34,523 nt of DNA from Bacteroidota bacterium (lineage in GTDB: Bacteria; Bacteroidota; Rhodothermia; Balneolales; Balneolaceae), in assembly GCA_003045995.1 (NCBI GenBank), contig PZPG01000020.1, positions 1-34,523 on the forward strand. The letters run 5' to 3'. Each line of letters begins with the position of its first letter. Positions within the stretch are counted from its first letter, which is position 1. Shown piece after piece: positions 13,130-34,523 of this stretch. The position numbers and the translations under genes were made by a program. Under the pieces are notes generated by a model. It saw nothing but the letters and a program-made list of their open reading frames with translations. It was not told the origin of the DNA and did no database searches.

Positions 13130-16024
13130 TTGCAAAAAAATATTGTCATACGGGGTGCTCGAGAGCACAATTTGAAGTCGGTGGATCTGGATATTCCACG
13201 CGAGAAGCTAGTGGTGTTTACGGGGCTGTCGGGGTCGGGGAAGTCTTCGCTGGCGTTTGACACGATCTATGCGGAGGGGCAGCGGCGGTTTCTGGAGTCG
13301 CTTTCGGCGTATGCACGGCAGTTTTTGGGGATGCTGGAGCGGCCGGATGTGGATTTTATTGACGGGTTGTCGCCGGTGATTTCGATTGACCAGAAGACGA
13401 CCAACCGGAATCCGCGATCGACGGTGGGAACGGTTACGGAGATTTATGATTTTTTGCGGTTGCTGTATGCGCGGACGGCGATTCCGTACTCGTATCTGAC
13501 CGGAAATAAGATGGAGAAACAGACGTCGGATCAGATTGTGGAGGCGGTGTTGCGGTTGCCGAAGGGGACGAAGGCGTATTGTATGGCGCCGGTGGTGCGG
13601 GGGCGGAAGGGACATTACCGGGAGTTGTTTGATCAGATGCAGCGTCAGGGGTTTGTAAGGGCGCGGGTGGATGGGGAGTTTATTGAGCTGGAGGGGGAAA
13701 TTCGGCTGGATCGGTACAAGACGCATAATATTGATGTGGTGGTGGATCGGTTTGTGGTGTCGGAGAAGAGCGAGCAGCGTATCCGGGATTCGATTTTTCT
13801 GGCGTTGGAGATGTCGGATGGGCATTTGGTGCTGGGAGTGCAGGGGGTGGCTGGTGAGCATGGTACGGCTGGTGAGCATGAAGGGCAGGGGGTGGCTGGG
13901 CAGGAGACGGCTGGGCAGGAGATGCACGATCTGATTTTTTCGAAGCATCTGTACGATGTGGAGAGCGGGTTGTCGTATGAGGATCCCGCGCCGAACTTGT
14001 TTTCGTTTAACTCGCCATATGGTGCGTGTCAGGAGTGCAACGGGCTCGGGTATCGATATGATGTACACCGGAGCTTGGTGATTCCCAATCCGGAAGAGTC
14101 GGTGGAAGATGGCGGCATTCGGTTTTTGGGTAAGCCACGGGATATTTTCCTGTTTAAGCAGTTGGATGCGGTGCTCAAAAGCGTGGATCTGGATTTTTCT
14201 GTGCCGCTGAAACAGTATACGGAGGAGGCTCTGGCACTTCTGTTTGATGGCGGCGGGGACAAGCGTTTTAACGTGTTTTACGATTTTCGCAAGCAGACGG
14301 TTTCCTACAAACACAAATTTGAGGGGCTGCGGTCGATCATCCGACGACAATATGTGGAGAGCAAGTCGCCGAAGCAACGGGATAAGGCGAAGGCATTTAT
14401 GTCGAAGGTATTGTGTGATGCCTGTGGTGGCGGTCGCCTGAATCGGGAGGCCCTCTCCTACCGGCTTGATACCTATTCGATCCACGACTTGGTGAAGATG
14501 GATATCCGGGAGCTTCGGCGAACGATTGGGACGATGACGCTGACCGACCGGCAGCGAACGATTGGGCAGCTGGTGCTGAAGGAGGTGATCGATCGGCTCG
14601 ATTTTCTGCTGAACGTGGGTCTGGATTATCTTACTCTCGACCGGGAGGCGGCTACGCTGAGTGGCGGGGAGGCACAACGGATTCGGCTTGCGACCCAGAT
14701 CGGTACGCAGCTGGTGGGCGTTCTCTATATTTTGGATGAGCCGAGTATTGGATTGCATCAACGCGATAACCGAAAACTAATCGATTCACTGAAAACGCTG
14801 CGGGATTTGGGAAACAGTGTGATTGTGGTGGAGCATGACCGGGAGACGATTGAGAGTGCCGATTTTGTGGTGGATATGGGACCGGGTGCGGGAACGCAGG
14901 GCGGAGAGATTGTAACGAAAGGGGCACCGGAGGAGTTGGATCCGTTGGCCATGACCACGAAGTTTCTGCGCGGGGCCGAGCAGATTGACTATCCGGAAGT
15001 ACGCAGAAAGGGTTCGGGCAAGGCGATTCGGATCAAAAACGCTCGCGGGCACAATTTGCAATCGGTAGATCTGGAGATACCGCTCGGGACGTTTGTGGCT
15101 GTGACGGGGGTGAGCGGGAGTGGAAAGAGCTCTCTCATCAACCAGACCCTGGTACCGATTCTTTCAAATGAATTTTATCGCTCGAAGGATGTGCCGCTTC
15201 CGTACGACAAAGTGAGTGGCCTGAACCACATCGACAAAGTGATTTCGATTGATCAGAGCCCGATCGGGCGGACGCCGAGGTCGAATCCGGGGACGTATAC
15301 AAAGGCGTTTGATAAGATTCGGGAGTTGTTTGCGGAGTTGCCGGAGTCGAAGATTCGCGGGTACGATAAGGGCCGGTTTAGTTTTAATGTGAAGGGCGGG
15401 CGGTGTGAAACATGCCGCGGGGATGGGGTGCGGAAGATTGAGATGAATTTTTTGCCGGATGTGTATGTGCCTTGCGAGACGTGCCGTGGTCATCGGTATA
15501 ATCGGGAGACGCTGGAGATTCGGTATCGGGAGAAGTCGATTGCGGATTTGCTGACGATGCCGATTTCGGATTTGTTGCCGTTTTTTGAGGCAGTGCCATC
15601 GTTGCAACGGGTTCTGGAGACGCTGGAGTCGGTAGGGCTGGGGTATTTGACGTTGGGGCAATCGAGTACGACGCTGAGTGGCGGGGAGGCGCAGCGGATG
15701 AAGTTGTCGCGGGAGTTGTCGAAGATCGGGACGGGGGATACGTTGTATGTGATGGATGAGCCGACGACCGGATTGCATTTTCAGGATGTGCGGATGCTGG
15801 TGGATGTGGTGCAGAAGCTGGTGGATAAGGGGAATACGGTGATTGTGATTGAGCACAACATGGATCTGATTAAGGCGGCGGATTGGGTGATTGATATGGG
15901 GCCCGAGGGCGGGAGTGGCGGCGGCCGGATTGTGGCGCAGGGGACGCCGGAGGAGGTGGCTGGGTCGGAGGAGAGCCGAACCGGGGTGTTTTTGCGGGAG
16001 GAGCTGGAGCGGGCGGCGCAGTAG
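13130..16024 (+). CDS. uvrA: Excinuclease ABC subunit A
   Basis: The damage-recognition ATPase of nucleotide excision repair, acting as a dimer with UvrB. It has 964 residues. The first ABC half has Walker [10 protein letters not shown] (32-40), and the N-terminal signature is [16 protein letters not shown] with Walker [13 protein letters not shown]. The second half has [25 protein letters not shown] and [12 protein letters not shown]. The central zinc finger CETCRGDG...[10 protein letters not shown] is complete. In zinc module 1 only the CQEC pair is present; the partner pair (CPxC in E. coli) is replaced by non-Cys residues, as I recall for Bacteroidota-like UvrA. Around residues 236-264 a Gly/Glu/His/Ala-rich repeat insert ([14 protein letters not shown] and so on) has expanded. 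The start codon is TTG, after TAGGATT. Confidence 0.97.
13843..13925 (+). repeat. Tandem-repeat insertion inside uvrA
   Basis: Repeated GGTGGCTGGTGAGCAT and GGCTGGGCAGGAG type units of 15-18 bp encode a degenerate AGEH/AGQE repeat of about 28 residues that interrupts the otherwise conserved region before zinc module 1. The frame is kept. Confidence 0.8.
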
Positions 16025-16168: not shown

Positions 16169-16885
16169 TTGAACGTTTCATCTTTTCCCTTTTGGAGGCG
16201 CACGATCGCAGCGGTTTTGATTCCGCTGATGATGGCACAGTTGTTGCTGCCGTTTACGGGGAATTTGCAGCGAAGTGCGTTTGCGAGTTGGTTGGATCAA
16301 AATTTGGTGGATGACCCAAATGCCACAACTGCCGGGATGGCACTTGAGGAGGATCTCCGGGCACAGATTCGGGAACTGTCGCATGAGGCGAAGGATCTTT
16401 CAACGCTGATTCGTGAGGCCTCGGTCCTGGTTGCGGATCATAGTGATCGGTTTCGCATTCCTTTGCATCACGATTTTAGCTCCGGGAATTGGGCCTTAGG
16501 GGATGCAGGAGCGGGTAGTCAGGCCGGTGATCGGGCTGGAGAGCCTGTGGATGATTTGGCAGGTGGTGAGGCAGGTGATTGGGAAGGTGAACCTGTGGTT
16601 GATCCGCCAGGTGATCAGGCATCATCGAAAAGTTCCCCTGAGATGTTGCTTCTGCATCAGTGGAATTGGTTTTCTCATCAAAAGAATAGTGTGAAAGGGG
16701 TGATGCCGGAGCTGTTTAAGCCTCTGGCTACATGGATGCCTGCATGGAGCGGATTTGACCGCGCCGGATTGAAGGGTGATTCCTTCGGACGGACTATGAC
16801 CATGTTTATTGCGGGCGGATCCCCTTCGTTTGAATCGTTTTGGCTTCAGCCTTTTCTGAGTGGCGTGAGTATTCACGCGCCATAG
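16169..16885 (+). CDS. Unknown secreted or anchored protein, TTG start
   Basis: A 238-residue frame between uvrA and secD. I do not recognise it. The N terminus (FWRRTIAAVLIPLMMAQLLLP) is a convincing signal peptide or anchor, followed by an acidic helical part (EEDLRAQIRELSHEAKDLST) and a low-complexity middle built from a 48-bp period repeat (16526-16564 and 16574-16612, giving AGEPVDD/EGEPVVD units). The tail is ordinary, ending VSIHAP. The frame is opened by TTG at 16169 with no good ribosome site; no ATG is near the signal sequence. The signal peptide and coding-like G-rich base use favour a real gene, perhaps found only in close relatives. Confidence 0.5.
   Translation: MNVSSFPFWRRTIAAVLIPLMMAQLLLPFTGNLQRSAFASWLDQNLVDDPNATTAGMALEEDLRAQIRELSHEAKDLSTLIREASVLVADHSDRFRIPLHHDFSSGNWALGDAGAGSQAGDRAGEPVDDLAGGEAGDWEGEPVVDPPGDQASSKSSPEMLLLHQWNWFSHQKNSVKGVMPELFKPLATWMPAWSGFDRAGLKGDSFGRTMTMFIAGGSPSFESFWLQPFLSGVSIHAP
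16526..16612 (+). repeat. 39 bp direct repeat, 48 bp period, in the unknown gene
   Basis: Copies at 16526-16564 and 16574-16612 differ at several positions but keep the order GGTGAT-GAGCCTGTGG-CAGGT. The 48-bp period is 16 codons, so frame is preserved. Confidence 0.75.
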
Positions 16886-21789: not shown

Positions 21790-21832
21790 AAGCCTCTCTG
21801 CAGATCGATCCGATCGGCGGAGAGGCTTTTTT
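21790..21832 (+). terminator. Terminator of the tRNA-Gly transcript
   Basis: The perfect 9-bp stem AAGCCTCTC (21790-21798) / GAGAGGCTT (21820-21828) is extended by a smaller inner hairpin, then a T run to 21832. It abuts the stop of the convergent tlpA-like gene. On minus the hairpin is present but the T run is not, so it chiefly serves plus. Confidence 0.9.
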
Positions 21833-22550
21833 AGTTGTTACTGTTCCCCTCTTCCAGCAACGGTTTGATTTTGGAAAGCAATTCTGTTTTGGTCACTGCT
21901 CCTGTTGCAAAGTAGCGAAAATGACCTTCGCGGTCGATAATGTATGTGGTTGGTATTCCCATTGTAGGTCCGTACAGATCCATCACTTCTCCAGAGCGGT
22001 CGATTATGATCGGATAGGTTACCTGGTACTCTTCAACAAAAGGTACTACTACCGACTCCCCTTGTTCATCCACCGAAACGCCCACAATCATGAGTCCGTC
22101 TTCCCGATACGCTTCGTAGAGGCTCACCAGGTCGGGAGTTTCTTTTTTACAGGGTGCGCACCAGGTGGCCCAGATGTTCATGATGATGACACTACCCCGG
22201 GTTTGTTGCATATCGAAGGTTGTTCCATCCAGGAGTGCCGTTCGAAACAGTGGTGCAGACGCTTCGGTGGTGGAGGGGAACAGAGGGGCGGATCGCGGGT
22301 CGATTCGTTCAACAGGGGTTGGTTTGCTGCCGGACGAGTTGCTACCGGACGAGTTGCTGCCTGCTTGCTTACTCCCAGAAGGGTTGTCCGGGCTCGGGCT
22401 GCATGACATCAACCCGAAGAAAAAGAAACATGTGGCAATGACCATAAAATGGAGAAGGGGAAGGCTTCCTAAGGGTCGACGACTGGATGAAATGGCTGGG
22501 GCGGTTGGAGTGGATTGTGTGCGTGATTTGGATGGTGTGGCGTGTTTCAT
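21831..22550 (-). CDS. TlpA/ResA-like thioredoxin lipoprotein
   Basis: A 239-residue membrane-anchored thiol reductase, probably keeping apocytochrome CxxCH cysteines reduced before heme attachment (CcmG/ResA role). The start overlaps the upstream gene by 4 nt. A lipoprotein signal ends in FFFFGLMSC with the lipid-carrying Cys at 50; unusually, some 35 residues precede the hydrophobic core. A Ser/Gly/Lys low-complexity linker (SGSNSSGSNSSGSKP) follows, then a thioredoxin fold with active site WCAPC (Cys131, Cys134), the cis-Pro GIPTTYIID, and a TlpA-type central insert (DEQGESVVVPFVEEYQV). The signal core FFFFGLM is encoded by a dispersed 10-mer copy (22408-22417). It is the last gene of the ccmF operon. 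Confidence 0.93.
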   Translation of the reverse strand: MKHATPSKSRTQSTPTAPAISSSRRPLGSLPLLHFMVIATCFFFFGLMSCSPSPDNPSGSKQAGSNSSGSNSSGSKPTPVERIDPRSAPLFPSTTEASAPLFRTALLDGTTFDMQQTRGSVIIMNIWATWCAPCKKETPDLVSLYEAYREDGLMIVGVSVDEQGESVVVPFVEEYQVTYPIIIDRSGEVMDLYGPTMGIPTTYIIDREGHFRYFATGAVTKTELLSKIKPLLEEGNSNN

Positions 22551-22822
22551 GGGGTAGTTTCTTGAGGGTAGGCTAGTTTCTTGACGACTTGACCTGTGGG
22601 GGTGATCCGTTCGTCGTCTGCCGGTTCCTCCATCGGAAAGCGGGAAAGCGGGACATTGGGATCCCGGTCGTGGGGTACATAGTGGCTGTGTGAGCCATGG
22701 TTCACTTCGGTGTACTCTTTCGGATTGAAGAAACCAAGAGAGTCTGCAAGTGCAAAAATAGCGGCGATGGAGAGGACCGAAAAAAAGCCGATTTTGAACT
22801 GGGTTTTCCGTTTGCTATTCAT
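22547..22822 (-). CDS. Small membrane-anchored protein of the ccmF operon
   Basis: A 91-residue protein with one N-terminal membrane segment (FKIGFFSVLSIAAIFALADS, about 8-28) and a His/Pro/Asp-rich outer part containing EVNHGSHSHYVPHDRDPNVP and ERITPTGQVV. It overlaps ccmF upstream (ATGA, 22819-22822) and the thioredoxin gene downstream (22547-22550), so translation is coupled. I do not recognise a named family. The position suggests a part in cytochrome c assembly; a role as a heme or metal handover protein through its His residues is speculation. Confidence 0.85.
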   Translation of the reverse strand: MNSKRKTQFKIGFFSVLSIAAIFALADSLGFFNPKEYTEVNHGSHSHYVPHDRDPNVPLSRFPMEEPADDERITPTGQVVKKLAYPQETTP

Positions 22823-25068
22823 GATGCGGGGGAATCTTCGGGGGAGTGCAGATTGGATTGTGCGAGTTCTGTAGAGGAACCTGCGAGTTCTGAGGGGGAA
22901 TCTTCAGGTTTCGAATGATTTGCAAGTCGTCCTCGGTGGCGCACAATCGATACGCTAAATCCGGCCATAAGTAGAAACACACCTGCCCATACAAAAGAGA
23001 TGAAGGGTTTGTCTTCGGCTACTAGCAACACCCACTGACGGTCCTCGTTTCGGGTTGATACGTTGGCCATGGTGCGTCCGCCGGAACGTCCGGATCGGTA
23101 TTCCCGGTTTCGCTGCTCCACGTAGGAGCTTCCCGCTACGTACAAATATACATCGTTGAGCCATCCGCCGTGAACATCCACATCCACGGACCAGTTGATC
23201 GACTCGGCTGAAGAAACCGGATAGACTTGCGGGAAAAGAGTGAACTCTTCAGTGACTGAACCATCGCGGGGGGAAATTTTTTCGAAGAGTAGCTCATACT
23301 TGTGCTGGCCCGGCCGCGCCTGATCCCCGTCACTCATCCCCAGATAGCTGACTCTGTATTTTCCGTTCACCATTTTGGGTTCGCCGAGGCGCAGTTCCAC
23401 AAATTGAATCTCTTCACGGACAGGGAATCCCTCCTTGTCCAGAACCATGCCATCTCGGACCGCTTCATTGTAGGCTCGGGTTTCATCATCCAACAAGTGC
23501 TGCTGATACGTGGTTGAGGCAAGGATACCGATCAGCATCACCCCGAACCCAATGTGTGAAATGGTACCACCGATTAATACCGGATTTTTCCGTAGCAGGG
23601 AGATCATCACGAAAAGATTACCGAAGCAGGCAAAAAAGGCGGAAAACAGATATACGATATCCCCGAAGCTGGTGACACTGGCGGCATAGATCACTACAAG
23701 AGTCGCTACTGCGGAGATCCCAAACGATTTTAGAAGTTCGGCGGCAAGGCTTTCCGGAGAGTGTTTGCTCCAGTACAAAACCTGCGCCGGCACAGTGAGA
23801 AATGCAGCAAGGATGGCAAGGGGCTGCGTCCAGTTGTTGTAGAAGCTGATTTCGGGTGGCGTGGGTGTGGCGGTGAACAGTTTCCCAAGAATTGGCGAGC
23901 TGGTGCCGATGATGATGACCCCGCCAATGATTGCCAATACCACAGAACCGGAAAAGGTCATAAATTCGCGGGTAAGAATGCCGGGGTCCGCAGTCTTTTT
24001 CGGCAGATCTTTGTATCGGACTGCGAAAAGGACGCCTCCGAGACCCAGGATTACAAGGATGAACAGCAGTAGCTGATTGTACAATCCGAGGTCGGTGAAG
24101 CTGTGAACCGAAGAGTCGCTTAGGATGCCCGAGCGCGTGAGAAATGCTTCGTAGATCACTGCGCTGTACGCAAGAATGGCAAACACCAAGGCCGATTTTT
24201 GCGCATAACCTTTTTTGTTCTGGATGAGCATCGAGTGAATTCCGGCCACACCCAGGAACCAGGGCACGATCGATGCGTTCTCGACCGGATCCCACGCCCA
24301 GAATCCTCCGAAGGAGAGTGTTACGTATGCCCAGTAACCGCCCAGGAAGATGGCCGTGAACAGCGCAAGGTTAGCGGCAACGGTCCAGGGTAGTGCATGG
24401 CGAACCCAGGTGCTATACTCCCGTTTCCATAGCGAGGCCAGGGCAAAGCAAAATGGCACGGTCATCATCGCAAACCCGAGAAACAGGATGGGCGGGTGGA
24501 TGACCATCCATGGACTACGCAGAAGGTCGTTAAGTCCCTTCCCTTCTGCTGGCACAAAATCGGGGTTGGCCTGAATAAATGGTGCATTCGGAAATGCATC
24601 TGCAATTGATTTAAATGCAGAGGAACCGATTTCGAACACTCCGAAATCAAATCCCGTGATCATGGAGATCAGAAATGCCTGGTTGAGGGTAAGAAAAAAC
24701 AGGACATGATAGCGATAGGCTCGCCCCACCCAAACCATCATGGCGATCCCGACCAGGTCTACGAACAGGATCCAGAGGAGAAAACTTCCCTCTTGTCCAC
24801 CCCAAAATGCCGAGACGAGATAGCGCAACGGCAGGTCGGAGCTGGTGTAGTTGTACACGTAGTAATATTGGAATTGGTGGGTTATAAGGAGCTGCAATAG
24901 CAACCCGGAGGCGATGAGCAATAGCACCATTTTCGCGATGAAAGCGCCGTTCGACAACTTTAGCAGCGATTCACGCCCTTTTGTAATTCCAAAAAAGTAC
25001 CCTGCCATCGTGAGCAGCGTTAGCACAAACGCGCTTTTTATAGCCAGGTCTCCCATCATCCCTGTCAT
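22819..25068 (-). CDS. ccmF: Cytochrome c heme lyase subunit CcmF
   Basis: A 749-residue multi-pass inner-membrane protein that attaches heme to CxxCH motifs of exported apocytochromes (System I). The heme-handling WWD-type motif GGFWAWDPVENAS lies at 254-266, with conserved His residues nearby (MVIHPPILFLGFA near 188-200, and IHSM at 277-280) and about 15 membrane segments. A periplasmic domain precedes the last membrane segment, and the C-terminal tail is Ser/Glu/Pro-rich and low in complexity. The ATG follows AAGGAT at good distance. It heads a three-gene operon on minus and is divergent from the cytochrome cluster on plus. Other ccm genes (ccmA, B, C, E, H) are not seen here. Confidence 0.95.
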   Translation of the reverse strand: MTGMMGDLAIKSAFVLTLLTMAGYFFGITKGRESLLKLSNGAFIAKMVLLLIASGLLLQLLITHQFQYYYVYNYTSSDLPLRYLVSAFWGGQEGSFLLWILFVDLVGIAMMVWVGRAYRYHVLFFLTLNQAFLISMITGFDFGVFEIGSSAFKSIADAFPNAPFIQANPDFVPAEGKGLNDLLRSPWMVIHPPILFLGFAMMTVPFCFALASLWKREYSTWVRHALPWTVAANLALFTAIFLGGYWAYVTLSFGGFWAWDPVENASIVPWFLGVAGIHSMLIQNKKGYAQKSALVFAILAYSAVIYEAFLTRSGILSDSSVHSFTDLGLYNQLLLFILVILGLGGVLFAVRYKDLPKKTADPGILTREFMTFSGSVVLAIIGGVIIIGTSSPILGKLFTATPTPPEISFYNNWTQPLAILAAFLTVPAQVLYWSKHSPESLAAELLKSFGISAVATLVVIYAASVTSFGDIVYLFSAFFACFGNLFVMISLLRKNPVLIGGTISHIGFGVMLIGILASTTYQQHLLDDETRAYNEAVRDGMVLDKEGFPVREEIQFVELRLGEPKMVNGKYRVSYLGMSDGDQARPGQHKYELLFEKISPRDGSVTEEFTLFPQVYPVSSAESINWSVDVDVHGGWLNDVYLYVAGSSYVEQRNREYRSGRSGGRTMANVSTRNEDRQWVLLVAEDKPFISFVWAGVFLLMAGFSVSIVRHRGRLANHSKPEDSPSELAGSSTELAQSNLHSPEDSPAS

Positions 25069-25130: not shown

Positions 25131-25270
25131 ATGTGATCCTCATGGGATTCTAGTGATCCTCATGGGACTCTAGTTCTCCTCATGGGACTCTAGTTCTCCT
25201 CGCGGGATTCTAGTTGTCCTCACGGGATTCCAGTGATCCTCATTGGATTCTAGCCATCCCATGCAGATTC
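25131..25270. repeat. Seven tandem 20 bp units between ccmF and cytochrome b
   Basis: The strict 20-bp period starts at 25131 and unit form is TAGTKMTCCTCAYGGGAYTC. Six units are well kept and the seventh (25251-25270) is degenerate. No spacers occur, so it is not a CRISPR array. Two-helical-turn spacing between divergent cytochrome-related operons suggests cooperative binding of a regulator. Confidence 0.9.
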
Positions 25271-25410: not shown

Positions 25411-26268
25411 ATGAAATTTGTTTTTTATAGCGTCGTCGGGCTGGCATGGCTTGGGATCGTGGTTTTGCCGGGGGTGTATGGATGGGAGTACTATATGACG
25501 CCGGTACCCGAACGTCCGTTTACGGAGCTGCACGATCAGCTTAAACCTACCGGTTTCATTGGGCATGGGTATGGGGTGATTGGGTCCTTGTTTATGATCG
25601 TTGGTGTGGCGACCTATACGTTGCGGAAGCGGGTGGCTTGGTTTGCGAAATGGGGAAAACTTCGGAGCTGGTTGCGGTTTCATATTTTTTTGTGCACGAC
25701 GGGGCCGGCGCTTGTGGTTTGGCATACGTCGTTTAAGTTTCAGGGGGTTGTGGCGATCTCGTTTTGGAGTATGGTGATTGTTGTGGCGAGCGGGGTACTT
25801 GGTCGGTATGTATACAAGCGGATTCCAAAAACAGAGGATGGATATTTTAAAAGTGTTCAGTTTGTTGTGGATGAGAAACTTGCACTGAGAAAGGAATTGG
25901 ACGCGATGGTGTCGCTGAGTCCTGTACAGGAGTCGATGTTGGGGCTCACGGCGGGACAGTTAAAGTTTACAAATCCATGGGCGGCACTCTATGCAGCAAT
26001 TCTATTTGATGTGAGGGGCCTGTTTTCCTGGAGCAGGGATCGGAGGGTTACCACAGAGCTTGCGTTGTCCAGACAGGAGCGGGAGTCGTTTCGGTCTCTC
26101 GTGCGTCGGTATCGCTGGAGAACCCGACAAGAGTTTTTGATTGAGCCGATGCAGAAGATTTTTGGATACTGGCATGTGTTTCACATTCCGCTGGCGACAA
26201 TTATGTTTTTGGTGCTGGCTGTGCATGTTTTTGTATCGATTCTTTTTGGATACACATGGATTTTTTAA
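25411..26268 (+). CDS. Membrane cytochrome b, probably two-heme
   Basis: A 285-residue inner-membrane protein with five likely membrane segments (about 1-24, 52-70, 88-106, 113-136, 257-284) and a basic cytoplasmic loop (about 137-250). Two segments each hold a His pair spaced as in cytochrome b and b6 helices: His91 and His105, and His258 and His272 (13 residues between). This is the pattern expected for two b hemes stacked across the membrane, one towards each side. Further His residues (41, 52, 255) could bind a quinone or another heme. I infer quinol oxidation that passes electrons to periplasmic c-type cytochromes encoded next. The family is not recognised beyond cytochrome b-like. First gene of the cluster. 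Confidence 0.75.
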   Translation: MKFVFYSVVGLAWLGIVVLPGVYGWEYYMTPVPERPFTELHDQLKPTGFIGHGYGVIGSLFMIVGVATYTLRKRVAWFAKWGKLRSWLRFHIFLCTTGPALVVWHTSFKFQGVVAISFWSMVIVVASGVLGRYVYKRIPKTEDGYFKSVQFVVDEKLALRKELDAMVSLSPVQESMLGLTAGQLKFTNPWAALYAAILFDVRGLFSWSRDRRVTTELALSRQERESFRSLVRRYRWRTRQEFLIEPMQKIFGYWHVFHIPLATIMFLVLAVHVFVSILFGYTWIF

Positions 26269-26323: not shown

Positions 26324-27007
26324 ATGAAATACCGACTTCTACTACTCGCAGGAACGATTATTTTTGGCATCACCGCGTTTGTGCTTACAACGGACCGGTT
26401 TCAGTCTTCGCCGCATCAAACCCTGACCGATGCAGAACTTGCGGAGAGGGCGCGACAGATTGCTTCCGGGATGAACTCCCGAGAGGGTTCTGGGAGTGGA
26501 TCCACAAGTGGAAGTGCGGCAGGAGATCGAAGCACGGCTGGGGCGATGCAACCTCCGGTCGATACCGAACCAACGGCAGACAATGTCTCGACCAGTTACT
26601 ACGAGCGTGTAAAGGATCTGGAAAGCTTTCTGGCTACGAATCCTGCAGATACCACTCACATGCTTCGGCTTGCGAGGTTGCTTCATCAGGGGCATCAATT
26701 GCAGGAGGCGACCGAATGGTACAACCGGCTACTTGAAATCAATCCACAGCAGGAGCAGGTACGGTTGGATCTGATTAACGCGTACGGGCAGGCGGGTCAG
26801 TGGGAGTTGGCGCTTTTGGCTACAGATGAACTTTTGGAGATCCGGGAAAATCATCCGGGAGCGCTGTACAATAAGGCGGCGATTTATGCGAATATGGGGC
26901 GGAACAACGATGCAGCGGCGATCTGGGAAGCTCTTTCCGAGCAGGAAGCAGGTACTACAATCGGCACGATGTCCAAAAATGCACTATCCAAACTGGCGGC
27001 TATGTGA
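26324..27007 (+). CDS. Membrane-anchored TPR protein
   Basis: A 227-residue protein with an N-terminal membrane anchor (MKYRLLLLAGTIIFGITAFVL), a Gly/Ser/Ala-rich linker (GSGSGSTSGSAAGDRST) and two to three tetratricopeptide repeats from about residue 90 (LRLARLLHQGHQLQEATEWY, then ALLATDELLEIRENHPGALY). The TPR part faces the periplasm if the anchor is a simple N-in signal. It resembles the CcmI/NrfG-type TPR modules that hold apocytochromes for heme attachment. That role fits the position just before multiheme cytochromes, but is inferred. The start lies 55 bp after cytochrome b. Confidence 0.8.
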   Translation: MKYRLLLLAGTIIFGITAFVLTTDRFQSSPHQTLTDAELAERARQIASGMNSREGSGSGSTSGSAAGDRSTAGAMQPPVDTEPTADNVSTSYYERVKDLESFLATNPADTTHMLRLARLLHQGHQLQEATEWYNRLLEINPQQEQVRLDLINAYGQAGQWELALLATDELLEIRENHPGALYNKAAIYANMGRNNDAAAIWEALSEQEAGTTIGTMSKNALSKLAAM

Positions 27008-27055
27008 TCTTTTCTTGCAAAATCCATATCACCCCAGGAGGCGGGCGGGCGGCAT

Positions 27056-27127
27056 TTCGAGGAATACCGGTCCTTCGAGGAATACCGGTCCTTCGAGGAA
27101 TACCGGTCCTTCGAGGATTGCCAGTGC
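27056..27127 (+). repeat. Four 18 bp units at the start of the 20-heme cytochrome gene
   Basis: Units at 27056, 27074, 27092 and 27110 read TTCGAGGAATACCGGTCC, the last one changed to TTCGAGGATTGCCAGTGC. Each unit carries GAGG and an imperfect palindrome (GGT..TTC...GAA.ACC). The fourth supplies both the ribosome site and the GTG start of the cytochrome. Confidence 0.9.
27113..27116 (+). promoter_or_regulatory. Shine-Dalgarno site for the 20-heme cytochrome
   Basis: GAGG with seven bases to the GTG at 27124. It decides the start: the resulting N terminus is a textbook signal peptide. Confidence 0.75.
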
Positions 27128-28917
27128 TTTCATTTCGATCCATACTTCTTGCTGGAATCGGAATGCTTTTCCTTTCTGCCGTGAGTCAGGCGCAACTGAT
27201 CTCTCCGGGAAAACTTTCAAACGCTCACTCCTTCCTGAATGGTATCTCGAACTGCGTGCAGTGCCATGAAATTCGAAACCCATCCATCTCTAACGAGCGT
27301 TGTCTCGATTGCCATGTACCTATCGACTCCACCATCGTGCAAATGCGGGGAGTTCACGGACAGCCGGATGTGTTGGATCAGAACTGTTCGAACTGCCATC
27401 AGGAACACTTCGGTGAGGAGTTTGATGTTCTTCGGTTTGATTCAGCGGGATTTGATCACTCGATCACTGGATTTGAACTGATTGGTGCTCATGCATCGGC
27501 GGAATGTCAGGATTGCCATGGAAACAGCGATTGGATCCGCGATCAGACCGTGCTGAATTATCAGGAAAAGTTCGGGTTGATAGGATCCCATTCCACGTTC
27601 CTGGGACTGGAGCCGACATGCGAGAGTTGCCATCTGGAAGAGTCCGTACACGGAGATCAGTTTGCAGGTGAATCCTGTGCCAACTGTCATAACACAGTAG
27701 ACTGGGAAGACATCAGCCAGTTTGATCACAATGAAGCACGATTTGCACTCACGGGACTTCATGTGGAACAGACATGCGAAAGCTGTCATACGCCCGAGCG
27801 GGTACTGGAAGGTGCACTAGCGGGAACTGAAGTGATCCGATTCCGCGGGCTGGAGTTTGAAACGTGCGAGAGTTGCCACGAAGACGTCCATGAAGGTCGG
27901 CTGGATGAACTGGCCGGTGTACCGCAAACCTGCGAATCCTGCCACGGAACGGAGGGATGGCATCAGTTTGATGAGCGCTTCCCGGAAGATCTGTTCCCAC
28001 ACGAGGAAACCGGATACGCGCTCATTGGGGCTCACGAATCGCTGGATTGCGAAAGTTGCCATGCTGTGAGAGAGGATCTTGTGATTGCGAATCAGTGGGT
28101 GGATGGGACGGCTGACTATACATATCCAGAGCCTGTGTCGGATACCTGTATGGATTGTCATGTGGACTATCACGAAGGGGTGTTTGTGCATACTGGCGAT
28201 GGTGCGGAATGTTCCACGTGCCATACAGAAACAGCCTGGATCCCCTCCAATTTTGGCCTGGCACAGCATGAGCAGCGCTCTCGCTTTCAGTTAACCGGTG
28301 CGCATGTGGTTACCCCTTGTTCGAGCTGCCATATTATGGAACCCAGCACGGTTACCGGAGAGGAAAAGCCTCAGTTTCGGTTTGATGACCTGAGTTGTGA
28401 GGGTTGCCACGAAGAAGACAACCCGCATGGAGATTCATTTGCCTCGGCAGAGGATGGATGCGACACCTGCCATGCAACCACCTCATGGAACCGTGATATT
28501 ACCTACGATCATGAGGCAGAAACCGGGTATGCACTCACAGGTGCTCATGCATCGCTAAGCTGCCAGTCGTGCCATTTTGATTCAGGTGTGGGCTCAGGTG
28601 CATCGAACCGCCAAGCATTCTCCTTGTTATTCGCCGCGCTTCCAGACGATTGTATGAGCTGCCACGAGAACGACAGCCCGCATCAGGGGCAGTTTGCCGA
28701 GTCGGTACTGGGGCCAGCCTGCGAAGAGTGCCATACCACGGAGCGGTTTACATTGGATGAGTTCGATCACTCTCGCACTTCATTCCCGCTGGATGGTGCC
28801 CATATTGAGGTTGCCTGCGCAGACTGCCATGTACAGGAAACAGCTGCGGACGGTTCTCTCTTTACTCGCTTTTTCCCTCTTTCCACCGAATGTTCTGCAT
28901 GCCATGGCGATCAGTAA
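27124..28917 (+). CDS. Multiheme cytochrome c with 20 CxxCH motifs
   Basis: A 597-residue exported protein with 20 CxxCH heme sites, spread along almost the whole chain. The GTG start gives a signal peptide (VLSFRSILLAGIGMLFLSAV, cleavage at SQA-Q). An earlier in-frame GTG at 27004 overlaps the TPR stop, but would add 40 residues of repeated RGIPVL with no signal logic. The chain repeats a module: FDH or a close form, then F/Y-x-L-x-GAH, four residues and CxxCH. The GAH His is a good candidate for the distal axial ligand. Six such modules are visible. No membrane segment other than the signal is seen, so a soluble periplasmic or surface electron wire is likely. A copy of the dispersed 10-mer (27572-27581) encodes FGLIG. 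It overlaps the next gene by 14 nt. Confidence 0.92.
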   Translation: MLSFRSILLAGIGMLFLSAVSQAQLISPGKLSNAHSFLNGISNCVQCHEIRNPSISNERCLDCHVPIDSTIVQMRGVHGQPDVLDQNCSNCHQEHFGEEFDVLRFDSAGFDHSITGFELIGAHASAECQDCHGNSDWIRDQTVLNYQEKFGLIGSHSTFLGLEPTCESCHLEESVHGDQFAGESCANCHNTVDWEDISQFDHNEARFALTGLHVEQTCESCHTPERVLEGALAGTEVIRFRGLEFETCESCHEDVHEGRLDELAGVPQTCESCHGTEGWHQFDERFPEDLFPHEETGYALIGAHESLDCESCHAVREDLVIANQWVDGTADYTYPEPVSDTCMDCHVDYHEGVFVHTGDGAECSTCHTETAWIPSNFGLAQHEQRSRFQLTGAHVVTPCSSCHIMEPSTVTGEEKPQFRFDDLSCEGCHEEDNPHGDSFASAEDGCDTCHATTSWNRDITYDHEAETGYALTGAHASLSCQSCHFDSGVGSGASNRQAFSLLFAALPDDCMSCHENDSPHQGQFAESVLGPACEECHTTERFTLDEFDHSRTSFPLDGAHIEVACADCHVQETAADGSLFTRFFPLSTECSACHGDQ

Positions 28918-30142
28918 ATCCAAAAATATCAACCAACAACGGACTCGAATCCGCGGCTTTGTATCTGCCATGACTCTGTCCTTCGCCTTGACCCTGGGCC
29001 TGCTACCCTTAGGATGCGGGAATAAGGTCCATGCCCAGTCCGCCCAGGCTGCACAGTCCGCCCAACCTGCCCAGGCCTCACAACCTGCCCAGGCCCAAAT
29101 CCGCGCAACCCAAACCAGCACCAACCCCCACGGCAACCTCAGCGCCGACCTCACCTGCGAACTATGTCATACTTCCGATGGCTGGGTTCCGGCCAAAGAA
29201 CCTCTCGACTTCAACCACAACACTCAAACCTCCTTCCCACTCATCGGTTCCCACCTCGAAACCACCTGCGAATCCTGTCATTTCAACCTGCAATTCAGTG
29301 AACCAATGATCACAGGCGAAGGTTGCGAATCCTGCCACGTTGATGTCCATCAGGGGGCCTTCACCGAAAGCTGTACCGACTGCCACAATCAAACCCGATT
29401 CACCGACATCGATGCCGATCAGATTCATCAGCGTACTCACTTCCCCCTCATCGGGGCACACAGCCAGATCACCTGCGAGTCCTGCCACGCTAATCAATCC
29501 GACGGCCACTTCGCCATCGATAGCGGCACCGAATGCATCGATTGCCATCAAGAAGACTACCTCGCTGCCGAAAGCATCGACCACGTCGCCAGCGGTTTTG
29601 CCGAAACCTGCGAAGATTGCCACTCGATGCTGGTCTGGTCCGGCGTGCAGTTCGACCACACCACGGTCTCCGGCGGATTCGCCCTCCTCGGAGCCCACGA
29701 TGCTATCCGATGCGAATCCTGCCACCTGCTCCCAACCTACGACCTTCCCTTCCAGCCACCCCCCACCAGCCAGGACGACTGCTACGCCTGCCACGCACAA
29801 GACTATGAAGACGAGCACGCGGGATCCGGCTTCCCCACCGACTGTACCCTTTGCCACAACGTCAACGACTGGGACGATGCCCGCTTCGATCAGCACGATC
29901 AACTCTACTTCCCGATCTTTTCCGGTGAACACCAAGGCGAATGGAACAACGACTGCAGCACCTGTCATGTCGTCCCCGACGATTTCAGCATCTTCAGCTG
30001 CATCGACTGCCACGAACACAATCAACCCGATATGGACGATGAACACGACGGCGTAAACGGTTATATCTACCAGAGTGAAGCCTGCTACTCCTGCCACCCA
30101 AATGGAAGCGAAGACGACGCGGAGGGAGGCGATGATGATTAA
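28904..30142 (+). CDS. Multiheme cytochrome c with 13 CxxCH motifs
   Basis: A 412-residue exported multiheme cytochrome. I start at ATG 28904, which overlaps the previous gene by 14 nt; the open frame itself begins earlier. The N terminus is basic, then hydrophobic (FVSAMTLSFALTLGLLPLGC). Either that Cys is lipidated or cleavage occurs at VHA-Q just after. A Gln/Ala/Ser/Pro repeat linker follows (SAQAAQSAQPAQ), then 13 CxxCH sites in modules of the same FxLxG(A/S)HxxxxCxSCH kind as the 20-heme protein. The C terminus is acidic. It is clearly paralogous to the truncated cytochrome at 33469 (shared NPHG-SADL, VDVH-GAF, VSGGF-LLGAHD). Its codons end mostly in C, unlike that paralogue and other neighbours. 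It overlaps the barrel gene by 11 nt. Confidence 0.9.
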   Translation: MAISKSKNINQQRTRIRGFVSAMTLSFALTLGLLPLGCGNKVHAQSAQAAQSAQPAQASQPAQAQIRATQTSTNPHGNLSADLTCELCHTSDGWVPAKEPLDFNHNTQTSFPLIGSHLETTCESCHFNLQFSEPMITGEGCESCHVDVHQGAFTESCTDCHNQTRFTDIDADQIHQRTHFPLIGAHSQITCESCHANQSDGHFAIDSGTECIDCHQEDYLAAESIDHVASGFAETCEDCHSMLVWSGVQFDHTTVSGGFALLGAHDAIRCESCHLLPTYDLPFQPPPTSQDDCYACHAQDYEDEHAGSGFPTDCTLCHNVNDWDDARFDQHDQLYFPIFSGEHQGEWNNDCSTCHVVPDDFSIFSCIDCHEHNQPDMDDEHDGVNGYIYQSEACYSCHPNGSEDDAEGGDDD

Positions 30143-31892
30143 ATCAACCCGACTCATACCCCGTATACCCCGTTTGTCCGGCAATTTTATGCATTGCGCT
30201 ACGATGGTTTCACTTCTACTTCTGTTTATGTTTCGGGTTGATGCGGATGCGCTCCAGGCCCAGGAACGCATTCGGGCAGAGGTACAGGTAATCCAGATTG
30301 CCGCGGATCAAATCTACCTTGAATTGGACACAGAAGACCTGGCAATGCCAAAAGAAGGCGCCATTTTGCTCACCTACCGGGATGCGGATTACCTTGGCTC
30401 GCTGGAGCTGATGGCCGCCTTTCCGCCACGGTTGCTGGTGAGGTATGCTGAAACCGTATTCCCGCTAACTCGCGGGGAGATTATTACGCTTGAGTGGGGG
30501 GCAGGTGTAGAGTTGGGAGGTGAGATCGTGACGGGAGACGAGGCTGGCGGTGGTGGGGTTAGTGGTGCCGATCCCGGCGCCGATGCCGATCCCGGCGCCG
30601 ATGCCGATGCCACTGCCGCGGAAGGGGATTCTCTGGGGAGTGACCGGCGTTCGATTTTGGACCGACCTGTAACACGAGGCTCAACGACCCGTTCCTCGCG
30701 GTCTAGCCGGCAGAGACAAATCCCACAGTGGAGCGGAAGGGTCCTGCTCGGTACCCGTGCATCTCAAAGCGTGACAAACTGGGGGGGGCAGACCGACGAA
30801 TCCAATACCCGATACAGTTCCATCTCCTACTCCAATCTCAGTTTTCGCGGCAGGGATCTGCCGGGTGGATGGTCGGTGCAGGCGCAGGGCAGACTCAGCT
30901 ACCGAGTTCAAACCGGATCGTTCCGGAATGACAACTATCTAATGAATATCTACAATCTGAAAGCCGCAAAAGTTTTTGATTCCATTCCTCTGGAAGTGCA
31001 AATAGGTCGCTTTTACAACCGCTTCGAAATGATGCACTCTTTTTGGGACGGAGCCATGGCGCATTTGCAAATGGGCAATTGGGGAGGCGGGCTTACAGGC
31101 GGGTTTCAACCCGTACGAACCACAGAGGGTCTCTCCTTTTCCTACCCGAAAGCAGGCGGGTATCTGCACTATCGACTTCGAACAGAGTCGGTTCGCTGGA
31201 CCATTCAGGCAAATGCAGCTGGCGTATTCCCATCGAATGAGGCGTTTCGCTCTTACGCCGGCATCGAGCAGAAGTTCCGCTATGATGGAGTCGGAATGGA
31301 TACAGAATTTCAGGCACACCGTCATCCGGATTCCGCAGAATGGCGCTGGACCCGCATTCGATTTCGGGCTTTTGCCGATCTCAGTGAGCAGCTCGAAGTA
31401 CGTGCTTCATACCAGCGCAGGATCTCTTATTCCCCGTTTCGAACCTTCTCTGAATTTTCCAACACACGCAATGAATATGGCCTGACAGCCACACTGTCCG
31501 CTTCAAACTGGCGGTTTATACAGGGTATGCGGTGGAATCATCAACCCGAAGCAAAATCTACTTCGTACCAGTCCCGAGTGCAGTGGAACCGGTCGCCGTT
31601 GTGGGATATCTCCTGGTCTGTTTATGGCTACTATTGGAATGGGCAGGAACGTGGGAGTAGCCTCAATTCGGGTGTTACTGCTTCCAAATCGCTCGAAAAA
31701 TGGCGTCTTCAGAGTGGTCTGAGTGCCTACCGGTCGAATTTTGTGAACAACCGGTACACGCAGGGATCGCTGTTTTTGAATGCCGATTACCGGCTTACAC
31801 GTGATCTTTCGGTTCAGGCGCGCTATCAGGGAGTGTTAGGTGAGTTTACGAGCCAGAATGCATTGTCCCTATCACTATGGAAGAGTTTTTAA
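30132..31892 (+). CDS. Outer-membrane beta-barrel protein, candidate porin partner of the cytochromes
   Basis: A 586-residue exported protein. The start ATG (30132, or 30135) lies right after GGAGGGAGG and overlaps the 13-heme gene stop. A signal peptide (to about ALQA-Q) is followed by a small N-terminal domain, an Asp/Gly/Ala repeat linker (GADPGADADPGADAD, from an 18-bp repeat at 30570-30605), and from about residue 190 a long series of alternating-hydrophobicity strands rich in Tyr, Trp, Arg and Gly, ending in Phe (LSLWKSF), the usual barrel-assembly signal. No CxxCH is present. Between multiheme cytochrome genes this is the expected place for a barrel that holds a cytochrome across the outer membrane, as MtrB and PioB do. 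Homology to them is not shown. Three dispersed 10-mers fall in it (30143, 30233, 31540). Confidence 0.8.
   Translation: MMIKSTRLIPRIPRLSGNFMHCATMVSLLLLFMFRVDADALQAQERIRAEVQVIQIAADQIYLELDTEDLAMPKEGAILLTYRDADYLGSLELMAAFPPRLLVRYAETVFPLTRGEIITLEWGAGVELGGEIVTGDEAGGGGVSGADPGADADPGADADATAAEGDSLGSDRRSILDRPVTRGSTTRSSRSSRQRQIPQWSGRVLLGTRASQSVTNWGGQTDESNTRYSSISYSNLSFRGRDLPGGWSVQAQGRLSYRVQTGSFRNDNYLMNIYNLKAAKVFDSIPLEVQIGRFYNRFEMMHSFWDGAMAHLQMGNWGGGLTGGFQPVRTTEGLSFSYPKAGGYLHYRLRTESVRWTIQANAAGVFPSNEAFRSYAGIEQKFRYDGVGMDTEFQAHRHPDSAEWRWTRIRFRAFADLSEQLEVRASYQRRISYSPFRTFSEFSNTRNEYGLTATLSASNWRFIQGMRWNHQPEAKSTSYQSRVQWNRSPLWDISWSVYGYYWNGQERGSSLNSGVTASKSLEKWRLQSGLSAYRSNFVNNRYTQGSLFLNADYRLTRDLSVQARYQGVLGEFTSQNALSLSLWKSF
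30570..30605 (+). repeat. 18 bp tandem repeat in the barrel gene
   Basis: Two identical 18-bp units GATCCCGGCGCCGATGCC (30570-30587, 30588-30605), encoding DPGADA twice in the linker between the N-terminal domain and the barrel. Confidence 0.85.
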
Positions 31893-31907
31893 TGAAATAA
31901 TTTGTAC

Positions 31908-33410
31908 ATGGAAGAGTTTCTGATCCAAAATGAGCAGTTGGTGATATGGCTGATCGCGGCGTTGCTGTTTGGGTTGTTTGCCGTTCCGTTTTGGATCAAA
32001 AAGATCCGGCTGGAGAAGCATACGCATGTGCAGGATATCCGTGCAGAGGAGTTTGGCCTGAAGGAGCCGGTTTCTCTGTATCCAAAGGTGAATCCGGACA
32101 TCTGCATTGGATCGGCGGGATGTGTGGCGGCTTGTCCGGAAGAGGATGTGCTGGGAATTCGGAATGGCCAAGGGGTGGCAGTGAATAAAGCGCTCTGTAT
32201 TGGTCATGGCTTGTGCGAGCGTGCATGCCCGGTGGATGCGATTACACTGGTATTCGGTAGTAAGACACGGGGTGTGGATATCCCGCGGATCCGGGAAAAC
32301 TTCGAAACCAATGTCCCCGGGATTCATATCGTGGGTGAGTTGGGTGGGATGGGGTTAATCCAAAATGCGTTTGAACAGGCTCGGCAATGTATCGAATATA
32401 TTCGCAAGGATCTGAAACCCTCTGGGCGGCGGGCGGATTCTGAAATCTATGATCTGCTGATTATCGGGTGCGGCCCGGCGGGTTTGTCGGCCACGATTCA
32501 CGCCAAGCGGGCCGGGTACCATTTTAAAACGCTGGAGAGGGAGGGAATTGGTGGAACGGTTCGGTATTATCCACGTAAAAAACTGGTGCTTACCAATCCT
32601 CTAGATGTGCCGGGTGTGGGAAAGATTCATAAGAAGCAGATTCTGAAAGAGGAGCTTATTGAGGTTTGGGAGTCGATTGTGGAGAAGCAACAGCTCGATG
32701 AGGATATTGTGACCGGGGTGAATGTGGATGAGATTCGAAGGGTGATGCCCGGGGGAGTTGGAGTTGGAGGGGATGGGTGGATAGGAGACGTGGGTGCAGG
32801 TGCGCATTCTGGTGATTGGGGTCGCTCTAGTGATGGAGGAGCAGGTGTAGTCGGGAGTGGGGATGGTAAAGGTGCTGAGGATGCTGATAATGCTGGCGCG
32901 AAACCCATCTTTGAACTGATTTGTGGGAATCAAACATGGAGATGCCGGAAAGTACTGATTGCGGTGGGTCGTCGCGGCACTCCGCGAAAACTGGGGATTC
33001 CCGGCGAGGAGCTGGATAACGTAGCCTACAGCCTTTTGGAGCCGGATCATTACACCGATGAATCGATCATGGTGGTGGGTGGAGGAGATTCGGCCATTGA
33101 AGCAGCCCTAGCCCTTAGTGAACAACCGGGCAACCAAGTATCCATATCATACCGAAAAGAAAAATTTAGCCGCCTTAAACCGCTTAACCGCTTAAAACTG
33201 AATGAGGCCTTGGAGGAGGGGCGGATCGCAGTATACCGGAAGACGAATGTGATTGAAAACCGGAAGGATTCGGTCGTACTGCAGCATGAGGATGGCCGCG
33301 AAGAGGTGATGGCGAACAACAGTCTTTTTGTTTTTGCGGGTGGGATTTTGCCAACTGCGTTTTTGGAGAAGGCTGGGATTAGAATTGATACCAAATTTGG
33401 CGAGGCCTGA
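31908..33410 (+). CDS. Membrane-anchored ferredoxin-flavin oxidoreductase
   Basis: A 500-residue protein, starting at ATG 31908. An N-terminal membrane segment (about 8-28) anchors a ferredoxin-like domain with two short clusters, CIGSAGCVAACP and CIGHGLCERACP. In each the second Cys of a normal CxxCxxCxxxCP is replaced (Ser, His). A thioredoxin reductase-like part follows with the FAD motif LLIIGCGPAGLSA and the NAD(P) motif IMVVGGGDSAIEAA; the redox CxxC of thioredoxin reductase is missing. A Gly/Asp-rich insert of about 45 residues (near 280-325) interrupts the reductase. The soluble part most likely faces the cytoplasm, so it could link NAD(P)H or ferredoxin to the quinone pool or cytochrome b. 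It lies 15 bp after the barrel gene. Confidence 0.85.
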   Translation: MEEFLIQNEQLVIWLIAALLFGLFAVPFWIKKIRLEKHTHVQDIRAEEFGLKEPVSLYPKVNPDICIGSAGCVAACPEEDVLGIRNGQGVAVNKALCIGHGLCERACPVDAITLVFGSKTRGVDIPRIRENFETNVPGIHIVGELGGMGLIQNAFEQARQCIEYIRKDLKPSGRRADSEIYDLLIIGCGPAGLSATIHAKRAGYHFKTLEREGIGGTVRYYPRKKLVLTNPLDVPGVGKIHKKQILKEELIEVWESIVEKQQLDEDIVTGVNVDEIRRVMPGGVGVGGDGWIGDVGAGAHSGDWGRSSDGGAGVVGSGDGKGAEDADNAGAKPIFELICGNQTWRCRKVLIAVGRRGTPRKLGIPGEELDNVAYSLLEPDHYTDESIMVVGGGDSAIEAALALSEQPGNQVSISYRKEKFSRLKPLNRLKLNEALEEGRIAVYRKTNVIENRKDSVVLQHEDGREEVMANNSLFVFAGGILPTAFLEKAGIRIDTKFGEA

Positions 33411-33468
33411 CATTTGTGCTTGATTTTTGGTACTATTATATGGAAATAAACAAACCTTGGGATCCATC

Positions 33469-34523
33469 ATGACATCCGCTCTCCTTCGGAATGGGAAGTG
33501 TCTGAGGTGCTACGATGCACTTATACGGGGGAGGTACGGACGGAAATGGTCTTTTTCTTGGTGTGCCTGGGTTGGGATGGTATGCGTGCTGACCATGAGT
33601 GGGTGTTGGGTTGATGTATGCCTTGCAGAGATGGGGGTAGCCGCTTGGATGCATCCGGTCTTGCCAGCCGGTACGACGAGGTATGTGCAGATGCCGGTTG
33701 CTTCCGGGTTTTCGCCGGTGGATCGTTTGACCCCGGTGCAACCAGTGAATCTGGATCCGGATACGACGCAGACGTCTTCGGACAGTGTGCAAAAGAGTGT
33801 GCATCCTAGCGTGCAAGATAGTGTGCTTAAGAGCGTGCATAATAGTGCACAAAAGAGCGTGTATAACAGTACGCAAAAGAGCGTGCGGACCAGCGTTGGT
33901 GATAATCCGCATGGTGTGTTCTCTGCCGATCTGCAATGCGAGGCCTGTCATACGTCGGAGAGTTGGGTACCGGCGCGAGAGCCCATGGATTTTGATCACT
34001 CGTCGATGACTCGTTTTGCGCTGATTGGTAGACATCAAACCGTGTCCTGTGAAAGCTGCCATACGCAATTGGTTTTTTCGGAACCGGTGATCTCGGGCGA
34101 TGGTTGTGAAACGTGTCATGTGGATGTGCATGAGGGGGCCTTTTCTGAAACTTGTTCCGATTGCCACGATACGATTAGTTTTTCTTCTGTGGACGGGGTG
34201 ATGATTCATCAGCGTACCTCGTTTCAGCTGCTGGGTGCGCACGCGGCGGTGTCTTGTGAGAGTTGTCATGATGGGCAGGCAGACGGGCATTTTGTGATCG
34301 AGGATACGGAGTGTTTTGCATGTCATGAGGATGACTACGTGGCGGCGGAGTCATTTGATCATGCAGGGCGGGGGGTTTCGACGCGGTGTGAGGATTGTCA
34401 TACGATGTTTTCCTGGGAGGATGCGTTTTATGAGCATGCGGTTGTGTCTGGCGGCTTCGAACTGCTGGGAGCGCACGATCAGGCCGATTGCGCCTCGTGC
34501 CACACGCCTGACATGGGACTGGT
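33469..34523 (+). CDS. Third multiheme cytochrome c, cut by window edge
   Basis: An open frame with no stop from ATG 33469 to the window end (at least 351 residues). The N terminus is long and basic, then hydrophobic (FSWCAWVGMVCVLTMSGC), a probable lipoprotein signal. A linker of four-residue units (SVQK, SVHP, SVQD, SVLK) precedes the cytochrome part, which starts NPHGVFSADLQCEACH. Eight CxxCH sites are visible before the edge. It is a tandem paralogue of the 13-heme protein, with module order and spacing kept. If a barrel gene follows outside the window, the whole cytochrome-barrel module was duplicated. Codons end in G or T, unlike the 13-heme paralogue. It begins 58 bp after the oxidoreductase. 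Confidence 0.88.
   Translation, partial: MTSALLRNGKCLRCYDALIRGRYGRKWSFSWCAWVGMVCVLTMSGCWVDVCLAEMGVAAWMHPVLPAGTTRYVQMPVASGFSPVDRLTPVQPVNLDPDTTQTSSDSVQKSVHPSVQDSVLKSVHNSAQKSVYNSTQKSVRTSVGDNPHGVFSADLQCEACHTSESWVPAREPMDFDHSSMTRFALIGRHQTVSCESCHTQLVFSEPVISGDGCETCHVDVHEGAFSETCSDCHDTISFSSVDGVMIHQRTSFQLLGAHAAVSCESCHDGQADGHFVIEDTECFACHEDDYVAAESFDHAGRGVSTRCEDCHTMFSWEDAFYEHAVVSGGFELLGAHDQADCASCHTPDMGL
33769..33888 (+). repeat. 12 bp tandem repeats in the linker of the third cytochrome
   Basis: About nine degenerate 12-bp units of the form AGYGTGCAAAAG or AGCGTGCATNNT encode SVQK/SVHN-like tetrapeptides between the lipoprotein signal and the heme domain. Confidence 0.8.

Follow-up and report, generated by a model that had tools for sequence, protein, structure and literature searches.

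What does the 285-residue membrane protein encoded at 25411–26268 (+) of this window, the whole 34,523-nucleotide stretch of DNA analysed, contribute to the multiheme c-type cytochromes encoded downstream of it, and from where would its electrons come? The protein very probably holds two heme groups, and very probably it passes electrons between the cell interior and a series of many-heme cytochromes that leads to the exterior, as judged from its sequence and predicted structure. With the electron donor left aside, we consider it with good confidence to be a di-heme cytochrome b of a PCC3-like system; we lean slightly towards the fuller statement, in which this inner-membrane cytochrome would also take part in a split-NOX-like relay from a neighboring flavoprotein. 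A di-heme cytochrome b is already the published interpretation of such a protein type (He et al. 2017, PMC5566968), which has been known since 2017; its association with a ferredoxin-flavoprotein is added here.

Conserved histidines and predicted topology

The reading frame, its start codon and its length agree with a preliminary description of this DNA. The translation contains histidines at positions 41, 52, 91, 105, 255, 258 and 272, among them the two H-x13-H pairs (His91/His105 and His258/His272) to which that description had drawn attention. An AlphaFold2 prediction (five models from a 38-sequence alignment; mean pLDDT 91.5) contains membrane-length helices at residues 2–23, 49–74, 84–105, 112–136 and in the C-terminal part of a long helix at 221–278, matching the five membrane segments proposed earlier and placing His91 and His105 on the predicted TM3 and His258 and His272 on the predicted TM5. 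The wider motifs are W87-x3-H91-x13-H105, S127-G-V-L-G131 and W254-x3-H258-x13-H272.

A search of 394 genomes of the window's phylum identified strong relatives (E below 1e-40) in 39, with ~35–55% identity over the matched part, as well as weak partial matches. Across the 38 aligned family sequences, which overall are 30–43% identical to the window protein, five histidines (His91, His105, His255, His258 and His272) are invariant (38/38), as are Ser127, Gly128 and Gly131; SGxxG is present in all 38 and two complete WX3HX13H motifs in 31, the histidines themselves being kept throughout. The four histidines of the two pairs are also retained in seven remote homologues (see below), and at this level of divergence such invariance is beyond chance, so the pairs passed the test of conservation in orthologues by which they might have failed. 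Their codons lie at 25681–25683 (His91), 25723–25725 (His105), 26182–26184 (His258) and 26224–26226 (His272), all on the + strand. His255, at the start of TM5 (26173–26175, +), is a fifth invariant histidine that had been overlooked; it is restricted to the close family and is found in none of the seven remote homologues (0/7).

The large basic loop postulated earlier corresponds to the ~115 residues between TM4 and TM5, which across the family carry 20 lysines and arginines per protein and a net charge of +6.3; the TM2–TM3 loop is likewise strongly basic (net +6.2 per protein), so that both stand at about +6. Because of these basic residues and the positive-inside rule, both loops are predicted to be cytoplasmic, TM3 and TM5 would therefore run parallel, and His91 would pair with His258 and His105 with His272. 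From this topology we infer that the first pair is the putative ligand set of a heme on the cytoplasmic side of the membrane, and the second that of a heme on the periplasmic side.

Relationship to known membrane cytochromes

The closest published counterpart is the inner membrane protein (IMP) of the PCC3 and PCC4 systems, described as ~300 amino acids long with five TM helices, SGxxG on TM4 and WX3HX13H on both TM3 and TM5 (He et al. 2017, PMC5566968). The window protein shares all of these features (285 residues, five predicted TM helices, Ser127-Gly128-x-x-Gly131 on TM4 and WX3HX13H on TM3 and TM5). This likeness is to the published motif description, and the direct sequence comparison covered shorter IMP-type homologues encoded on plasmids, in which, as noted, the window family's invariant His255 is missing. 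The families also differ in distribution, that of the window being found in Bacteroidota in the wide sense and in Gemmatimonadota rather than mainly in Proteobacteria. Our literature search on PCC3 in Bacteroidota returned nothing relevant; novel PCCs in Bacteroidetes are mentioned without operon detail of this kind (PMC6344600), and a seven-gene cluster of six cytochromes and a porin is described in an anode Bacteroidetes MAG (PMC8258643), with no match to the window operon established.

He et al. likened the IMP both to the ferric reductase/NOX domain, with which they equated the placement of the pairs on TM3 and TM5, and to cytochrome b, and proposed that it is a quinone-active di-heme cytochrome b (PMC5566968). 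With the TM domain of ferric reductases and NADPH oxidases (PF01794, including MsrQ) the window protein has in common two H-x13-H-type pairs on TM3 and TM5 and, by analogy, an NAD(P)H flavoprotein as donor; it differs in that the dehydrogenase is a separate protein, the acceptor would be a multiheme cytochrome, and no significant sequence or fold match is seen. The PF01794 profile does not match the window protein, and hhalign reached 11% at best, over TM2–TM3 only and non-significant. With cytochrome b and b6 of bc-type complexes it shares the H-x13-H spacing and probably the disposition of two b-hemes across the membrane, whereas the ligands of the latter are on helices 2 and 4, profile similarity is absent (hhalign probability below 1% for the PF13631 type), and no Rieske or cytochrome c1 partner is seen adjoining the gene. 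The label "cytochrome b-like" thus stands in the sense of a compact, probably di-heme b-type membrane protein tied to multiheme cytochromes and matching the PCC3/PCC4 IMP; kinship with the Rieske-type cytochrome b found no support in profile comparison.

Other comparisons gave no further relative. Pfam and NCBIfam searches with the single window sequence yielded nothing usable, and sequence searches of solved structures gave chance matches only. Foldseek with the predicted fold (PDB and viral structures) recovered no known fold, and most of its chance matches were to the long hairpin of helices that separates TM4 from TM5. Family-wide Pfam searches produced weak matches to DUF4405 in 18 of the 38 members (best 1.2e-5) and to Ni_hydr_CYTB (best 0.0017); when the family was compared by profile with alignments of DUF4405, cytochrome b561, FRD and cytochrome b, none was confirmed as a relative.

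Organization of the operon

The cytochrome b gene is followed on the same strand by six further genes. The first (26324–27007, +) encodes a TPR protein with an N-terminal hydrophobic segment (Pfam TPR_19, 6e-9), which, by synteny, neighbors the cytochrome b in some but not all family members. Next is a c-type cytochrome with 20 CxxCH motifs and Pfam support (ORF 27004–28917, +; the true start is probably downstream of the GTG), a candidate periplasmic wire, and then one with 13 (ORF 28694–30142, +; CxxCH motifs and Pfam; the true start is probably later), which may be extracellular or on the outer-membrane side. The gene at 30075–31892 (+) encodes a predicted outer-membrane beta-barrel with a small N-terminal beta domain followed by ~22 strands; its AlphaFold2 model, built with 40 homologues, has a pLDDT of 79, and Foldseek relates it to ushers and porins (342 matches at E<=1e-3). 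It is followed by a fusion protein in which a membrane-anchored ferredoxin with two Fe-S motifs precedes an FAD/NAD(P)H flavoprotein of thioredoxin-reductase fold (31902–33410, +; Pfam, conservation, motifs and co-occurrence), and by a third multiheme cytochrome (33427–34521, +) with CxxCH motifs for at least 8 hemes, which resembles the second and extends past the end of the window.

This composition is well preserved. For 76 loci, 9.3 kb or more of sequence is available downstream of the cytochrome b; the flavoprotein is present in 74 of them, the barrel in 72 and a cytochrome with at least 17 hemes in 71, with all three together in 71. Where the first cytochrome is present (71 loci), its heme count is exactly 20 at 60 of them, and that of the second ranges from 10 to 61 across loci, with 64 in one (L032). 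A constant first cytochrome and a variable second one fit the arrangement of PCC3, in which the periplasmic and extracellular multiheme cytochromes have median counts of 21 and 34 hemes respectively (PMC5566968). The window thus resembles a PCC3 cluster in having an IMP, 20-heme and 13-heme cytochromes in putative periplasmic and outer positions, and a ~22-strand barrel. The proteobacterial PCC3 cluster is composed of four genes without a flavoprotein (PMC5566968, PMC12442390), and operons of the window type differ from it in carrying the ferredoxin-flavoprotein and often the TPR protein.

Divergent from the operon, at 21831–25068 (-), are genes for a CcmF-like protein and a TlpA-like thioredoxin, together with one for a small unknown protein, so that cytochrome c maturation genes adjoin a heavy user of that pathway in the window. 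Between the CcmF and cytochrome b genes, in the presumed promoter region, is a tandem array of a 20-bp unit in ~6 copies (25136–25253). Many coding sequences in the window, including that of UvrA, contain in-frame tandem-repeat or low-complexity inserts (13883–13922, 16514–16621, 27056–27117, 30566–30618 and 33787–33886).

The ferredoxin-flavoprotein partner

From its N-terminus the flavoprotein consists of a hydrophobic anchor helix (present in 88 of 104 members), a ferredoxin domain with Cx5Cx3CP and CxGHx2Cx3CP motifs, and a thioredoxin-reductase-fold domain with the FAD motif GCGPAG and the NAD(P) motif GGGDS. The usual second cysteine is replaced in the first Fe-S motif by Ser, Thr or Cys, and in the second (residues 99–109) by an invariant histidine (102/102), making a His-ligated or 3Fe cluster possible in this domain. 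A 52-residue Gly/Asp-rich insert at residues 285–336 is absent from relatives. No CxxC is present in the window flavoprotein, which is therefore not a disulfide reductase of the TrxR type.

This last point bears on whether the cytochrome b and flavoprotein might serve cytochrome c maturation instead of respiration, keeping apocytochrome cysteines or heme iron reduced in the periplasm. We regard such a role as very improbable. The genes for CcmF and the TlpA-like thioredoxin lie directly upstream on the other strand in the window, and a CcsA gene is upstream in Emticicia, as it would suggest; however, the heme load alone accounts for maturation genes, the conserved partners include an outer-membrane barrel and wire-like cytochromes, and the flavoprotein lacks the CxxC.

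When the ferredoxin part of the flavoprotein was searched against the same 394 genomes, it was found in 38 of the 39 with a strong cytochrome b and in none of the 355 others (Fisher's exact test, P ~3e-52, uncorrected for shared ancestry). Set against that caveat are the gene order, which varies by lineage, the flavoprotein coming second in some and last in others, and one genome (G327) in which 15 kb separate the cytochrome b from a cluster of flavoprotein, multiheme and barrel genes that is otherwise intact. The sole cytochrome b genome without the flavoprotein (G181) has a cytochrome b truncated before TM5. Its locus (L061, G181:C56:37000-56900) is a decayed copy of the operon, with a 94-residue remnant of the barrel and neither flavoprotein nor multiheme genes.

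Remote homologues adjoin other flavoproteins

The seven remote homologues comprise five encoded on proteobacterial plasmids (~24–28% identity) and two from the window's phylum (L070 and L071). Among the positions examined, only the four heme-ligand histidines and Gly128 are kept in all seven, and in hhalign the plasmid group matches the main family at a probability of 99%. The plasmid loci of Methylophaga, Bradyrhizobium BTAi1, Variovorax and Legionella fallonii encode a short cytochrome b, flanked on one side by a membrane-anchored FAD/NAD-binding/2Fe-2S protein and on the other by a heptaheme cytochrome, and by annotation the gene order is the same in Qipengyuania. By sequence motifs and annotation the plasmid flavoprotein is of the ferredoxin reductase/NOX type, unlike that of the window. 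These loci correspond to the short IMPs without a porin (He et al. 2017), which resemble the window system in the hhalign match, the four histidines and the presence of a flavoprotein partner, and differ in their length (228–252 amino acids), their FNR/NOX-type FAD/NAD/2Fe-2S flavoprotein, their single heptaheme cytochrome and the lack of a visible barrel. A further redox protein beside PCC4 and short IMPs was also reported by He et al. (PMC5566968). The comparison with Proteobacteria covers a few plasmid loci.

A third arrangement is seen in L071, where a pyridine-nucleotide oxidoreductase with FHA and 2Fe-2S domains is encoded near the cytochrome b; a similar protein is present in L070. Both loci contain a second, remote paralogue cluster of PCC4-like character (cytochrome b, 10-heme cytochrome, FHA protein and FHA/2Fe-2S flavoprotein), with further multiheme genes upstream.

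Electron donor and direction of flow

Three flavoprotein/Fe-S arrangements adjoin the same cytochrome b, and this is our main reason for favoring a relay linked to NAD(P)H or ferredoxin; that unrelated flavoprotein types are its neighbors argues for a functional NAD(P)H link. The cytochrome b would be the IMP of a PCC3-like porin-cytochrome system that exchanges electrons with the cell exterior, one b-heme being held near the cytoplasm by His91 and His258 and the other near the periplasm by His105 and His272. In combination with the ferredoxin-flavoprotein, the cytochrome b would act as a split NADPH oxidase or ferric reductase, in which electrons could pass from NAD(P)H or reduced ferredoxin to FAD, through two Fe-S clusters to the inner heme, from there to the outer b-heme and on to the 20-heme periplasmic cytochrome; from there they would cross the outer membrane by way of the barrel and reach the remaining multiheme cytochromes and, finally, an acceptor outside the cell. 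The genes, the conserved histidines, the predicted helices and the near-perfect co-occurrence of the flavoprotein are observed, whereas heme binding, donor, direction of flow and the location of each cytochrome are interpretation.

Several considerations weigh against the relay. The four-gene PCC3 cluster of Proteobacteria has no flavoprotein, and its IMP may therefore manage alone; kinship with NOX or ferric reductase is not established by the hhalign (11%) and Foldseek comparisons given above; and the flavoprotein and cytochrome b could each serve the same wire separately, without acting on one another.

The preliminary description had regarded the protein as a plausible minimal quinol oxidase feeding the multiheme cytochromes, a reading that our analysis does not support in that form; the protein's most constant partner is a ferredoxin joined to an NAD(P)H flavoprotein, and the remote relatives have another NAD(P)H flavoprotein in the corresponding place. 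A quinone-active cytochrome b, oxidizing menaquinol or else reducing quinone and in electron exchange with the periplasmic 20-heme cytochrome, the flavoprotein being accessory or feeding the quinone pool separately, is nevertheless a possible, if rather doubtful, alternative. He et al. (2017, PMC5566968) put it forward for this type of protein, it agrees with the classical cluster lacking a flavoprotein, and His255, which only the close family has next to the putative heme on the cytoplasmic side, could be part of a quinone site. Against it, no quinone-site signature was identified, profile similarity to quinol-oxidizing cytochrome b is absent, and the flavoprotein is almost never missing, its place being taken in remote relatives by one of another NAD(P)H-dependent type. 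Because of this last pair of observations quinol is no more likely as the donor than a pyridine nucleotide or ferredoxin of the cytoplasm, and we favor the split-NOX-like relay over a stand-alone quinol oxidase. The constant NAD(P)H-linked flavoprotein suggests that electrons may not derive from quinol, contrary to the published assumption.

It appears unlikely that the system runs in reverse, drawing electrons from a donor outside the cell, for instance Fe(II), and passing them to quinone, ferredoxin or NAD(P) within. PCC3 is found in Fe(II) oxidizers (PMC5566968), and its inner membrane component is upregulated in iron-oxidizing cells of Sideroxydans CL21 (PMC12442390). Such conduits are capable of both directions. 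However, electrons from Fe(II) would have to travel uphill to NAD(P), at a cost in energy, and many carriers of this variant belong to Bacteroidales, Ignavibacteria and Saprospiraceae, best known as heterotrophs.

If the flavoprotein link of the outward relay is functional, the entry to a PCC3-type conduit would be a cytoplasmic carrier and not the quinone pool. The bioenergetics would change with it, electron export dissipating rather than building membrane potential and serving in redox balancing. More tentatively, and a little short of what we would call probable, this would amount to a quinone-independent form of extracellular electron transfer widespread in Bacteroidota and Gemmatimonadota, in which a two-component NADPH-oxidase-like unit, made up of the di-heme cytochrome b and the ferredoxin-flavoprotein with its His-containing Fe-S motif, takes electrons from NAD(P)H or ferredoxin in the cytoplasm and delivers them directly to the 20-heme wire, from which they leave via the barrel.

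Distribution

A scan of genome contigs found at least 555 relatives of the cytochrome b. The best 80 of these are from Rhodothermales, Gemmatimonadota, Ignavibacteria, Chlorobiota, Bacteroidales, Marinilabiliales and Saprospiraceae, and include strains of Labilibaculum, Maribellus and Mariniphaga. Within ~35 genomes of the window's GTDB family the gene is present only in the window's own genome, and its distribution is therefore patchy. Proteins of ~193 amino acids in G294, G123, G162 and ~40 other genomes of one family weakly match residues 49–147 of the cytochrome b (E 1e-4 to 1e-8); they are not the operon protein and are possibly a related protein with two helix pairs.

The pairing of the cytochrome b with the Cx5Cx3CP/CxGHx2Cx3CP ferredoxin-flavoprotein provides a marker for this putative capacity in common sediment Bacteroidota, with cultured or plasmid-borne carriers in Emticicia oligotrophica, Labilibaculum, Maribellus and Mariniphaga. 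In the first of these, a cultured strain, the entire operon is carried on plasmid pEMTOL02 (L152, 71356–92141) with the CcsA gene upstream of it, and its location on a plasmid makes horizontal transfer of the operon plausible.
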